Below, piece after piece: positions 25,754 through 48,494 of a stretch of 64,000 nucleotides of DNA. The stretch is from Candidatus Altimarinota bacterium (lineage in GTDB: Bacteria; Patescibacteriota; Gracilibacteria; BD1-5; UBA6164), in the NCBI GenBank assembly GCA_027019405.1, contig JALUWO010000057.1, positions 1-64,000 on the forward strand, in the 5' to 3' direction. Positions within the stretch are counted from its first letter, which is position 1, and each line of letters begins with the position of its first letter. The notes under the pieces are model-generated. The model saw only the letters and a list, made by a program, of their open reading frames with translations, did no database searches and had not been told where the DNA came from. Made by a program: the position numbers and the translations under genes.

Positions 25754-27052
25754 ATGACAAATAAAGAAAAAGAAACACAATGATTTGAAACTTTTTTTAA
25801 TAGTCTAATTAATTCTCCAGAATATAAAGCAATGGTATGAGAATTTGATTCAGATAAAACTAAAGAACAATTAAATAAAGTAGATAAAACTATAAAAAAA
25901 GCTGGTGATATAATGTGAAATTTTAAAGATATTTTTGAAACTCCTGAAGTAATCCAAGCATGAAAAAATTATAAATGAACTTCTCAAGCTGAAACAAAAT
26001 TTTCTAAATCTAATGATGAAGATGAAAATAAAATGAATTTTGAAGTAAAATATTTTAAAGATAAAAATCCAAAAACTTGGGGATTTGCTTGAATTGCTTG
26101 ACTTGAAGATCTTAAACAAGAATTAAAAGAAAGTTTTGTGAATCCTTTAAAATTTAAATTTTTAGTTGATTCTTTAGAAAAAAGCCCTCTCTCAGTCTCT
26201 CCCCAAGGGAGAGAGGTAGAACAAAATAAAAATGAAATTTATTTAAAATTAAAACAAGCTTATGATAAATTAAAAGTTAATATTCCAACAGGGCTTTTAA
26301 TGTATGGTCCTCCTTGAACAGGTAAAACTTTTATAAGTAAAAAATTGGCTCAAGAATTATGAGCATGATTTATTTCAAAATCTATGTGAGAACTTGGAAG
26401 TAGTTATATACATCAAACTACTCAAAATATAAAAGAACTTTTTGATTTTGCCAAAAAAGAATCTAAAAAATGACCTATAATTTTATTTTTAGATGAAATT
26501 GATTCTTTAGTTTCAGCTAGAACTGATAGAGTTGATGCAAATAAAGCAGAAGAAGTAAGTCAATTTTTGCAAGAATTTAATAAATTATATGAAGAAGCTC
26601 CAAATTTAATAGTTATAGCTGCAACAAATAGACCAGATCATCTTGATTCTGCTCTACTTAGAAGTGGAAGACTTGATAAAAAAATCTATGTTTGACTTCC
26701 AGATTTTGAAACAAGAAAAGCTCTATTTAAGGTATTTATAGAAAAATTTGATAGACCACATTCAAAATTAAATTACAATAAATTAGCAGAACTTACAGAA
26801 TGATATGTAGCAGCTGATATAGAAAATATAGTTAAAGAAGCTTCAAGAGATGCTAGTCAATGAATTTTGGAACTAGTTAATTTAGTAGAAAATCAAAAAT
26901 GAGATAAAATAGATTTTGAAAAAATAAATAAAGATTTAGAAAAACATGTTTTAACTCAAGAATTACTAGAACAAGCAATAAAAGATACAACTAATTCAGT
27001 AAAAATGATTGATATGTCAGTATATGAGAAATGGAAACAAAAAGTAAGCTAG
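25754..27052 (+). CDS. AAA+ ATPase carrying an in-frame palindromic insert
   Basis: A 432-residue protein. The N-terminal 140 residues are charged and unfamiliar. The AAA core follows: LLMYGPPGTGKTFISKKLA (Walker A, about residues 184-202), IILFLDEIDSLVSARTD (Walker B), VIAATNRPDHLDSALLRSG (sensor 1) and SGRLDKKIYVGLPD (arginine-finger region). These are like FtsH/Cdc48-type single-ring ATPases but without protease or membrane segment. Just before the core, residues around 144-156 (SPLSVSPQGREVEQN) are encoded by a GC-rich palindrome. It is divergent from the TelA-like gene; an unfoldase or membrane-remodelling partner role is inference. Confidence 0.85.
26185..26216 (+). repeat. GC-rich palindromic element inside the AAA+ ATPase gene
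   Basis: CTCTCCC (26197-26203) and GGGAGAG (26207-26213) form a perfect hairpin, and CCTCTCTC (26186-26193) pairs with GAGAGAGG (26209-26216) as an alternative. It is followed by TAGAACAAAAT, a linker also found beside the related element at 46809-46896. The reading frame stays open through it. Its base composition is very unlike the surrounding AT-rich gene. Confidence 0.8.
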
Positions 27053-45090: not shown

Positions 45091-45126
45091 AATTTTATAC
45101 TAAAAAACTAAACTCAACTTCCTGGC

Positions 45127-45144
45127 AGCTAGTTTTAACTAGCT
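45127..45144. repeat. 18-bp palindrome, copy 1
   Basis: AGCTAGTTTTAACTAGCT, identical to 55363-55380. Here it encodes the last codons and stop of the helicase-nuclease gene and may act as part of its terminator, though no T run follows directly. Confidence 0.75.
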
Positions 45145-48100
45145 GAATTCAACACCTCCTCCCAAAACTCCAAACTATTTATCTTCTCCCAACTATCTTT
45201 CACTAATTCCTTAAACTCCTCATAATCTCAAGATTCAATAGAAACTGGAACATATTTGTATTCTCAGTTTTTTCATTCTACAAAATCTAGGGCTAATTCA
45301 GTGATATTGTATTTTGAACTAAACTCTGGATCATTTTCTGCTAAAAGTTTATAAAAAAGCAATTGCCTATAATACTTCCCTTCCTCAAAACTTTCTTTTT
45401 TGTTTCAATATCTATCTACTCATTTTATTTTTCATTCTGTCTTAATACTTCAAGTCTTATAATCAACAACAGCAACATCTTCTACAAATAATGCAGATTG
45501 ACCAACAGGGTGAACACCTAGGTTCCCCCCTACATTATCTTCTGTAGAGGCAGACCTATGTGTCTGTCCTGAATTTAAACTATCCCCTATCTTCTCAACC
45601 TTATCAACCTTACCAGTTATCCTAACTCACTCAAAAACAACATCTCTTGGTCTAAAATTGTACTCTACAGCTAGTGGGACTCTAGGATTTTTAGAGAAAA
45701 TTTCATAATATCAAGTAAGTCATTCTATTCATTTTTTAGTTAATCTATCTCTTTCTTCTGCTGTCAAAACTTGATATTTTAAAAGCTCAAGAAATTTTTC
45801 TGTCATTTCTCAAAGTGTAACCTTTTCTCATCTTATTTTAGCATTTGTAGCAAGTTCTAAAACTTTATGATAAACATTACCAAAAATAGTAAATTCATTA
45901 CCAGTAAAAGGATATTTAAACACAACATTTCTTAAAAATTGTTTTGGGTCTTCTAAAAATGTATTTAAATCAGTAGGACTTAATTTATAATTTTCTAAAA
46001 ATTCTTGAATATAATTTATTTCTTCTTTAGTAGTCTTAACTAAACTATCATGATTTCACAATAATTCATTTTTTAGTGTTTCAATTAATAAGTCCCCTTT
46101 CTCCCTTGGAGGGAAAGGGTTAGGGATAGGGGGAATTCATATTTCAAGTATAAATGGACTATCTATATAAGGTTTATTATCTTTACCTGCTGGTCTAGTA
46201 AAAATAAGCTCTTTTTTTGCTCTAGTCATAGCTACAAAAAATAGTCTTCTATCTTCTTGCAGCTGAGTTTCTTTTTCTATAGATTTTATTTCTTTTTCAT
46301 CTAATCATGCAAATTGTAATCAATTTCATGCAATTCAAAGAGGTAGTTTTAGTTTATCTATAACTCTTTTTGATTCCCAATTTCCACCATAAACTCCTGG
46401 AATATAAACATAATCATATTCCAGTCATTTTGATGCATGGGCAGTAAGTATTTCTATATTTGAATTAGTTTTTTTAAGAATTTGTCTAGAAATTCAGATA
46501 TTATATTTATTGTGTAATTCAAATTTATTTAATAATTCTTTCAAACTTAAATCAGGATTTTTTTCATTAAATTCTTTAATTTTATTAAAAAGAGTAAAAA
46601 CATCTTCCAAATCAGAAAAACTTCAATTAGTTTCTATATATTCTACTAATCAAATTTTATCTAAGATTTTTTGAAATAATCTAGAAATTCAATACAAACC
46701 AAGCTCAGAGTTTAATTCTAAAATTAAATCTCTAAATTCTATGATTTTTTTATAATCTTTATATTTTTCTTCAAGTTCTAATTCAAATAGGGCTTGTTTT
46801 TCAGAAATCCTCCTCTCAGTCTCCCCCAATGGGGGAGAAGAAACTTCATTTTGTTCTACTCCTTTCTCCCTTAGGGGGAAAGGTTGGGATAGGGGGATTT
46901 TATCAATATCCTTAATCAACTCCCACAAACTCAATAAAAATCCATTTCTAAAATAATTTTTCTTATATAATTCTTTGGATAAAGTAATCACATCAATATT
47001 TTCTACATCTACAATATCAGTCCTTAAAATATCTATTAATTTTTCATCATCAAAACTTGGATTTTCAATTAATCTCAAAAAATCCAAAATAAAATTTACA
47101 AATTTATTTTTTAAAATATTTGTTTTTAATTTACTTTCAACTTCAACTCACTGTAATTGCATAAATTTAGTCCATTCTTCTACTTCCTTATTACTTCTAC
47201 AAATTATTGCAAAAGTTTCAAGGTGAACACATAGGTTCACCCCTACACTATTTTCTGTAGGGGCTTCCTCCAGTGTCTGCTCTGATTTCTTCTTTATATC
47301 CTCCAAAACAAACAATTTCTCCAAAATCTCATCTTGCAAAATATAATATTTATTTTCTATATCTAAATCTTTTAAACTTGGATTTGAAGCAATTAATTCT
47401 TTTTTTAAATCTGATAATTTATTTACCAATCTTTGAGAATTATTTTCTATTAGATTAGTTGATAAATCCAAAATAGATTGAACAGATCTATAATTGTTTT
47501 TTAAAACAATAAATTTTGTATCTGGATAAGTATTCACAAAATCAAGCATATTCTCAATATTTGCCCCTTGAAACCTATAAATTGACTGATCATCATCTCA
47601 AACTACCATAATATTTTTAGTTTCTCAGACACTTAAAATCAAATCAATTAATTTATTTTGAGAATTATTAGTATCTTGATACTCATCAAGCATTATATAT
47701 TGATGTTTTTCAGCTAAATCATATCTTAAATCTTCATCATTTTCCAAAGCTTCCACTGTAAAATTTATCATATCAGAAAAATCATATAAAGCATTTTTTT
47801 TAAAATAATCTTGATATTCTTTATAAATCAAATTTAGTTCAATCAATTTTCAAATATGTTTTTTATAAATTTCACTATCTTTTTTAGTTCTTTTTTCTAA
47901 ATCTCTAATTCTTTTATTATTTTTTAAATCCTCTAATTTTTGATCATAGTGCAATCTTAATTCTGCAATTATTTTTTCAAATTTTTTAGGACTTACTCAT
48001 TCTCACTTTAATTTTCAAATTCTGTCTTTTATATCTCTTAGATACATATATCTATCAAAAGCATTGAATAAATATTCAATATTATTATTTTTAATATGTT

Positions 48101-48494
48101 TATCTATTATATAAGTCAAAACTTGCAAAGTTTCTATATCATCAATAGTTGAACTAGCCTTAAATTCAGCAAATTTCTCTGGATAACTAGTTATAATATC
48201 TTGTGCAAAAGAGTGAAAAGTAGCCACTTTTACTTTATATGCATCACTTCAAATAAATTTTGCTAATCTTTTTTTAATAGCAATTACTCAAGCTTCTGTA
48301 AAAGTAGTAATTAAAATATTTTCTGGATTCACTCCAGCCTTCAAAATAATATTAGCAGTTCTCATTCAAATAATCTGGGTCTTCCCTGTTCCAGGTCCAG
48401 CTACAACCATAACTGGTCAATTTATTTGCTCTACAACTTGCTTTTGAGCTTCATTTAAATTATTAAATTCATCTTTATAAAATCAGATTTGCAT
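45135..48494 (-). CDS. UvrD-type helicase with C-terminal RecB-like nuclease domain, carrying four in-frame palindromic inserts
   Basis: A 1119-residue protein. Helicase motifs: VMVVAGPGTGKTQII (Walker A), ITTFTEAGVIAIKKRL (Ia), HQYIMLDEYQDTNNSQ (II), VVGDDDQSIYRFQGANI (III), LKNNYRSVQSILDL (IV), ILTAHASKGLEYDYVYI (V) and RRLFFVAMTRAKKELIF (VI). The C-terminal 250 residues are a PD-(D/E)xK fold: FGNVYHKVLELA, VEYNFRPRDVVFEGVRITGK, VDKVE and AVVDYKTGS with the catalytic D and D-x-K. It resembles AddA-like or Cas4-type helicase-nucleases for end processing. Four GC-rich elements (45505-45572, 46092-46135, 46809-46896, 47219-47285) lengthen surface loops without breaking the frame, one between the two nuclease motif strands. 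Confidence 0.9.
45505..45572 (-). repeat. In-frame palindromic element, TAGGTTC type, copy 1
   Basis: Outer arms GGGTGAACACCTAGGTTC and GACCTATGTGTCTGTCCTG are imperfect inverted repeats; inner arms CCCCTACA and TGTAGAGG enclose an AT-rich loop. It matches 47219-47285 over most of its length. Read in frame it gives SGQTHRSASTEDNVGGNLGV, placed between GKVDKVE and AVVDYKTG of the nuclease domain. Confidence 0.85.
46092..46135 (-). repeat. In-frame GC-rich stem-loop, CCCTTTCTCCC type
   Basis: CCCTTT...CCC (46095-46105) pairs with GGGAAAGGG (46111-46119), followed by TTAGGGATAGGGGG. The coding strand gives PPIPNPFPPREKGD in a loop after the helicase motif VI region. It resembles the half of 46809-46896 that holds CCTTTCTCCC/GGGGGAAAGG. 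Confidence 0.75.
46809..46896 (-). repeat. In-frame double stem-loop element
   Basis: Two GC-rich hairpins, CTCCCCC/GGGGGAG (46821-46827 and 46831-46837) and CCTTTC..CCC/GGGGGAAAGG (46861-46883), are joined by AAACTTCATTTTGTTCTACT. The CTCTCAGTCTC start and the TTTTGTTCTA linker also occur, linker inverted, at 26185-26230. In frame it gives IPLSQPFPLREKGVEQNEV and SSPPLGETERR. Confidence 0.85.
47219..47285 (-). repeat. In-frame palindromic element, TAGGTTC type, copy 2
   Basis: GGTGAACACATAGGTTCACC opens it; CCCCTACA (47240-47247) pairs perfectly with TGTAGGGG (47256-47263); AGTGTCTGCTCTGA closes it. In frame it gives SEQTLEEAPTENSVGVNLCV, clearly related to the copy-1 peptide, in the loop before the helicase strand FAIICRSNKE. 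Confidence 0.85.

Follow-up and report, generated by a model that had tools for sequence, protein, structure and literature searches.

The window, by which we mean the whole 64-kb stretch of DNA analysed here (GC 0.20), carries on its reverse strand a gene for a helicase with a nuclease domain at its C-terminus (Table 1). Its reading frame stays open over the full length under genetic code 25, with 36 TGA codons translated as glycine, and a Pfam scan of the product recovers UvrD-helicase (1e-62), UvrD_C (5e-30) and PDDEXK_1 (1.5e-10). Orthologues are present in 57 of the 60 relatives whose genomes were searched. A palindrome, CAGCTAGTTTTAACTAGCTG, lies at the 3' end of the gene (45124-45148) and is possibly a terminator. 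In what follows the source genome (2.70 Mb in 504 contigs) is labelled G000, its relatives bear other G numbers, and contigs and loci bear the prefixes C and L.

This helicase gene carries four hairpin-forming elements of the mobile type, which belong to two unrelated families and are all in frame. E1 and E2 make up the first family; E3 and E4, which are located between them in the same gene, make up the second and were overlooked in a sequence-only reading of the locus that had counted two copies in the gene.

Table 1. Genes and elements discussed in the text (window coordinates unless a locus, L, is given).
Feature	Position	Strand	Sequence or size	Description
Helicase gene	45135-48494	-	1119 aa	UvrD/Rep-type helicase with C-terminal PD-(D/E)XK (RecB/AddA-like) nuclease; code 25
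E1 first REP	45508-45533	-	GTAGGGGGGAACCTAGGTGTTCACCC	2 mismatches to consensus; hairpin
E1 second REP	45544-45572	+	GTAGAGGCAGACCTATGTGTCTGTCCTGA	Completes tail-to-tail dimer (GTAG inside) between nuclease catalytic strands
E2 first REP	47222-47246	-	GTAGGGGTGAACCTATGTGTTCACC	Same 25 nt as the REP within the C348 RAYT gene
E2 second REP	47257-47285	+	GTAGGGGCTTCCTCCAGTGTCTGCTCTGA	Decayed; tail-to-tail dimer in loop before FAIICRSN strand, helicase domain 2A
E3	46093-46134	-	Peptide IPPIPNPFPPREKGD	Single DUF559-type end, in frame
E4	46809-46900	-	Peptide PLSQPFPLREKGVEQNEVSSPPLGETERR	Inverted pair of DUF559-type ends, about 17 nt between them, in frame
Second-kind palindrome	26183-26217	+	AGCCCTCTCTCAGTCTCTCCCCAAGGGAGAGAGGT; peptide KSPLSVSPQGREVEQN	In frame in AAA ATPase gene (25754-27052); GC island
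RAYT gene, contig C348	L002:2212-2886		224 aa	NHFH, WQ and conserved Tyr region
RAYT gene, G009	L088:4486-5190			61% identical to C348 RAYT; HUH and Tyr motifs separated by a REP pair in frame

When the region is compared with itself, E1 (45506-45575) and E2 (47219-47288) emerge as its longest direct repeat, 77% identical over 70 nt without a gap, and their GC contents (0.49 and 0.47) stand well above that of the window. Two related GC-rich copies in the same orientation and frame, coding for related peptides, had been proposed from the sequence alone, and this description holds. In pattern searches GTGAACACNTAGGTTC has two exact matches, in E1 and E2 only, against a chance expectation of 0.33 even with 3 mismatches allowed, while CCCCTACA occurs three times against 0.07 expected. 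Compared with shuffled versions, each element has the better fold in nearly every case (z -2.4 for E1, -2.3 for E2). They are palindromic, as the same reading had stated, yet its outer and inner arms resolve into two separate GTAG hairpins that stand back to back in each element. Every one of these is a stem-loop of 25-29 nt with the layout GTAG-GGG-stem-CCTATGTG-stem-CCC-TGA, in keeping with REPs as imperfect palindromes of 20-40 nt, the second REP of E2 being decayed so that it barely folds. All four start with GTAG, a tag that stays unpaired at the base of the stem, and within each element the two tags face one another over a spacer of about 10 nt. Paired REPs of either orientation occur in this genome, tail-to-tail in the helicase gene and in an RNase HII gene, head-to-head on contig C348. 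On this pattern of tags and stems we identify E1 and E2 as tail-to-tail dimers of GTAG-type REP elements.

Both peptides are missing from helicase orthologues in which the flanks align and are conserved. Where the window encodes IKKK-SEQTLEEAPTENSVGVNLCVHL-ETFAII, the orthologue of G008 (73% identical) has IKSKNKNNETFAII; the E2 site reads IK-SKNKNNETFAII in G008 and IQKKNNKNETFAII in G030 (69% identical), and at the E1 site G030 has a short linker between the strands GKIDKVE and VVDYKTG. E1 itself is positioned between GKVDKVE and VVDYKTG, which agrees with the earlier placement of one insert in the nuclease domain between its catalytic strands, and E2 directly precedes the strand aligned to KDYAILYRGN in Escherichia coli Rep. 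Because orthologues lack the peptides, the flanks are conserved and the positions fall in loops of the alignment, we take E1 and E2 to be loop insertions, as had been suggested for both sites; the same residues were not seen in distant orthologues. Neither E1 nor E2 turned up at these positions in any sister genome, so that the exact boundaries of the insertions are drawn from orthologues that are 69-73% identical. One might argue that the two segments are ancient and native to the helicase and resemble each other through internal duplication, all the more as they share one gene and one frame. We reject this option as hardly credible, since orthologues down to members of the same family lack the segments with flanks that align, and since the same DNA recurs elsewhere, between genes as well as inside genes for a RAYT and RNase HII.

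As for the frame, two of the six possible frames of E1 and E2 are open under code 25 (one per strand) and one is open under code 11; the helicase gene uses the frame that is also open under code 11. The frame bias of the helicase dimers is explained by stop codons in the other frames, and nearly all intragenic REPs of the clade are translated as VGxxLCV or GQTHRSAPT. A requirement of E1 and E2 for code 25 can be dismissed, the frame in use having no TGA. Code 25 is needed only for the REP within the C348 RAYT gene, where TCA GGG TGA ACA is read as S-G-G-T.

Further copies, which the sequence-only reading had proposed to look for, do exist. A pattern search with the consensus GTAGGGG-stem-CCTATGTG-stem-CCCTGA finds 9 REPs in G000 at 0-3 mismatches, a count that passes over decayed copies and refers to an assembly in 504 contigs. 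At 2 mismatches there are 8 (reversed control pattern, 0), and among 99 relatives 64 matches against 5 for the reversed control, spread over 11 genomes; of 288 genomes from the class, 9 have matches when 1 mismatch is allowed. A tenth consensus match in G000, on C206, is probably due to chance. Together with the decayed second REP of E2, the nine REPs make up five dimers, two in the helicase gene, one on C144 and two on C348. The C144 dimer is tail-to-tail and occupies an in-frame position within an RNase HII-QueH gene, whereas both C348 dimers are head-to-head, one being upstream of a RAYT gene and the other in frame within it. At the C144 locus (L021:1309-2580) RNase HII and QueH are fused in one frame; in the relative G056 (L255) the fusion partner of QueH is instead a NadD-like domain that bears a DUF559 insert. 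Elsewhere in the clade, in-frame GTAG REPs reside in genes for PriA and an aminoacyl-tRNA synthetase fragment (G016), TsaD and ArgS (G022), DnaE (G045), and UvrC, TrmD and an AMP-binding enzyme (G032). These hosts show the same bias towards DNA repair and tRNA functions as those of a 2013 survey (PMC3733652). Copy number is low for a REP family (9 in G000, 20 in G009), decayed copies being missed by the pattern, and most of the copies in G009 are intergenic.

The RAYT gene on C348 gives only a weak match to PF01797, below the Pfam cut-off, the domain being split by its insert: the REP pair in frame lies between the HUH and Tyr motifs. Its third motif, YIxNNP, is degenerate and reads YIDENV, and given this worn motif the protein may be inactive. 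The homologue in G009 (Patescibacteria bacterium UBA6489) retains all three motifs of subclass 2.4 (NH[IFV]H, WQ and YIxNNP, here YIRNNP). REPs in frame between HUH and Tyr are a hallmark of this TnpA-REP subclass (Quentin et al. 2018, PMC6006769), so that such REPs inside a RAYT cannot count as novel. Consistent with this, in a scan that spanned many phyla, in-frame GTAG-derived peptide pairs (VGADLCVCP ... GEHIGSPL or GQTHRSAPT) occupy that place in almost every one of the 80 closest RAYTs, a near-universal occurrence that is biased upward by a query which itself contained the insert. In G000 the C348 RAYT with identical REPs upstream and inside therefore establishes the link between REP and RAYT. 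In G016 and G022 REPs are present and a relative of this RAYT was not detected; REP and RAYT are therefore not always found together. It seems to us that the helicase REPs were probably moved by the C348 RAYT, and their patchy presence is consistent with mobilisation. A search of mainly open-access literature found no study of RAYTs from the candidate phyla radiation. In another relative, G048, 14 IS200-like (PF01797) matches were recorded, many of which are incomplete and truncated at the ends of contigs.

Rickettsia palindromic elements, the original work on which is reportedly that of Ogata, had been named as the known parallel, and E1 and E2 could in principle be their relatives, i.e. palindromes specialised for protein-coding genes. 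The two behave alike in that GC-rich palindromes add 20-30 residues in frame to conserved proteins. RPE-4 and RPE-6, however, are described in the 2013 survey as CGTC-tagged REPs with no dedicated transposase (PMC3733652), while E1 and E2 are GTAG-tagged and the genome has a RAYT gene with the same repeat. Nor do elements that are mostly intergenic in G009 look specialised for genes. Membership among Rickettsia-type elements is refuted by the tag, so the parallel stands as an analogy, kinship is quite unlikely and GTAG REPs with their RAYTs are the nearer relatives.

E3 and E4 have a different origin. Over 42 nt E3 shares 97.6% identity with one end of a DUF559-containing insert in the RecG gene of G060 (L243), and E4 matches the other end of that insert (95.9% over 49 nt) as well as an end of an insert in the TsaD gene of G016 (L246; 95.6% over 45 nt). 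Both hence share terminal sequences with DUF559-carrying elements, and the fold of E4 has a z score of -2.7. Judging from these ends, E4 looks like a miniature version of a DUF559 element and E3 like a single end. The family occupies six places in G000, five of which are in frame in genes (helicase twice, RecG, ApbE, RsmB/F). In the RecG gene of G000 (L119:1114-3564, C206) inverted palindromes flank a complete DUF559 domain (PF04480, 5e-34) within a single ORF of 817 aa. DUF559 occurs in 60 of 99 relatives. Among the best 30 DUF559 loci, 25 had the motifs used for ORF tracing and most of these 25 are in frame in larger ORFs, the hosts being RecG (8), MiaB (2), MnmA (2), TsaD, MiaA, RecQ and the NadD-like/QueH fusion. 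The 1.8-Mb genome of G030 has 15 DUF559 matches, several of them in near-identical 125-aa frames, which suggests recent amplification.

RecG is informative on how often such an element has entered one place. From EGDVGTGKT to QVAIMAPTEILARQH the RecG proteins have 18-24 residues in 18 of 32 sequences, 80 in one and 163-203 in 13, the set of 32 being enriched for filled sites. Within genus g4, G003 and G029 are empty (ALHAIIES-NKIGNRIQVAIM) and G035, G021 and G064 are filled. In a tree of the DUF559 domain, RecG-borne copies are spread over several clades that also contain those from RecQ, MnmA, MiaB and TsaD; even the same loop of g4 RecG holds different lineages, that of G021 (clade support 100/100) and that of G035 and G064 (97/87). 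A single ancestral insertion into RecG is not supported, as the RecG-borne domains do not form one clade, and the tree is most simply read as repeated independent entry of DUF559 at one RecG site. To our minds, these data slightly favour an undescribed class of mobile element, in which a gene for a DUF559 nuclease (VSR/PD-(D/E)XK-like) lies within inverted palindromes, inserts in frame in housekeeping genes and is translated as an internal domain. It would have entered the same RecG loop repeatedly and independently, and also RecQ, MiaB, MnmA, TsaD and others, moved by DUF559, which may be the mobilising enzyme, or by a partner enzyme; E3 and E4 would be its small relatives, miniature forms beside the RAYT-driven REPs. 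This is the most novel part of our findings and could be new, albeit provisionally so: a search of mainly open-access literature found no paper on DUF559 in in-frame mobile elements, judged by the titles and opening lines of those that mention the domain.

Loops of the helicase and of TsaD are used by both families. The E1 loop is occupied by the GTAG dimer in G000 and by second-kind palindromes in G008, G011, G012 and G016; the E2 loop holds the GTAG dimer in G000 and second-kind palindromes in G011 and G018; and the TsaD loop from SKL-EYE to LFPRVW is filled by a GTAG dimer in G022 (L102) and by a DUF559 element in G016 (L246), members of different genera. Since two unrelated families converge on the same loops, the places of insertion may be set more by survival where inserts are tolerated than by recognition of a target. 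The recurrence of unrelated palindromes in the same two helicase loops can also be seen as a sign that an insert is kept for a role as nucleic acid, be it an mRNA hairpin for translation or decay or a recombination signal, rather than as a passenger. Stable hairpins would suit such a role, and PMC3733652 mentions hypotheses in which intergenic REPs act in mRNA stability and supercoiling. Presence is patchy, however, sequence and length differ at the same loop and many orthologues have no palindrome there, which makes such a role improbable. Removal of the inserts after transcription or translation, by an intein-like or bypass mechanism, might equally be envisaged for inserts that sit in frame in conserved proteins, the more so as the larger DUF559 relative is intein-like in layout and carries a nuclease. 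Against this, the inserts occupy loops where their retention is tolerable, and Pfam scans found no Hint splicing domain in the helicase, RecG or other hosts; inteins are therefore rejected and removal of any kind appears very unlikely.

We therefore favour, with a probability of roughly 0.88, a scenario in which E1 and E2 are non-autonomous GTAG REP dimers that most likely owe their spread to a subclass 2.4 RAYT and are tolerated in loops of the helicase, with E3 and E4 as a separate, DUF559-associated family. Such a RAYT, a REP-associated tyrosine (HUH) transposase whose gene is in the same genome, would most likely spread GTAG REP dimers, some of which would have come to rest in loops at the helicase surface. 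These insertions would have survived selection where one of the dimer's few stop-free frames matched that of the gene and the protein tolerated some 20 extra residues, and the inserted peptide would be without a role for the helicase. E3 and E4 would have reached the gene separately.

This extends intragenic REPs to recoded Patescibacteria and ties them to a subclass 2.4 RAYT in the same genome. It further amounts to a natural insertion scan, in which unrelated mobile palindromes settle repeatedly in a few loops of DNA-repair and tRNA-modification proteins, and loops filled recurrently would mark places at which the protein structure tolerates additional residues. As for the second family, it suggests that some of the proteins with DUF559, a domain that is widespread and whose function is unknown, travel in mobile elements inserted in frame. 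This idea can be tested directly, since the RecG site is empty in some sister species and filled in others.

Among known systems, the closest are the GTAG REPs of Di Nocera et al. 2013 (PMC3733652), who describe intragenic, in-frame REP dimers coding for 20-30 aa in genes for UvrD/Rep helicases, recBCD, DNA ligase and tRNA enzymes, with recB of two Xanthomonas species struck at nearly the same position. Our elements resemble these in their stem-loops of 25-30 nt, their tail-to-tail and head-to-head dimers, their in-frame insertion and their UvrD/Rep hosts; they differ in the use of code 25 and a much lower copy number, and the accessible text of that survey does not name Patescibacteria. Intragenic REP dimers of the E1/E2 type are hence a known phenomenon, though apparently unreported in code-25 Patescibacteria. 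With RAYTs of subclass 2.4, which corresponds to group 4 of Bertels (PMC6006769), the RAYTs found here share NHFH, WQ and (in G009) YIxNNP, long REPs whose foot has three G-C pairs and the placement of in-frame REPs in the stretch between HUH and Tyr; the C348 copy departs from them by a TGA read as glycine inside its own REP and by the degenerate third motif. REPINs (Bertels and Rainey 2011, PMC3116915), inverted REP pairs that are moved as a unit and associated with a RAYT gene, have the layout of the head-to-head pairs of C348 and G009, whereas the helicase copies turn GTAG to the inside across their short spacer and the classic pair turns it to the outside.

The DUF559 family invites a different comparison. 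Inteins and VSR-like homing endonuclease genes place a nuclease-type domain in frame in conserved genes of DNA and RNA metabolism and are patchy at the same site. The DUF559 family is like them in its in-frame nuclease domain, its conserved hosts and its patchy distribution at one site. It is unlike them in that it has no splicing domain, is flanked by palindromic inverted repeats, comes in miniature versions and is represented by several lineages at one RecG site.
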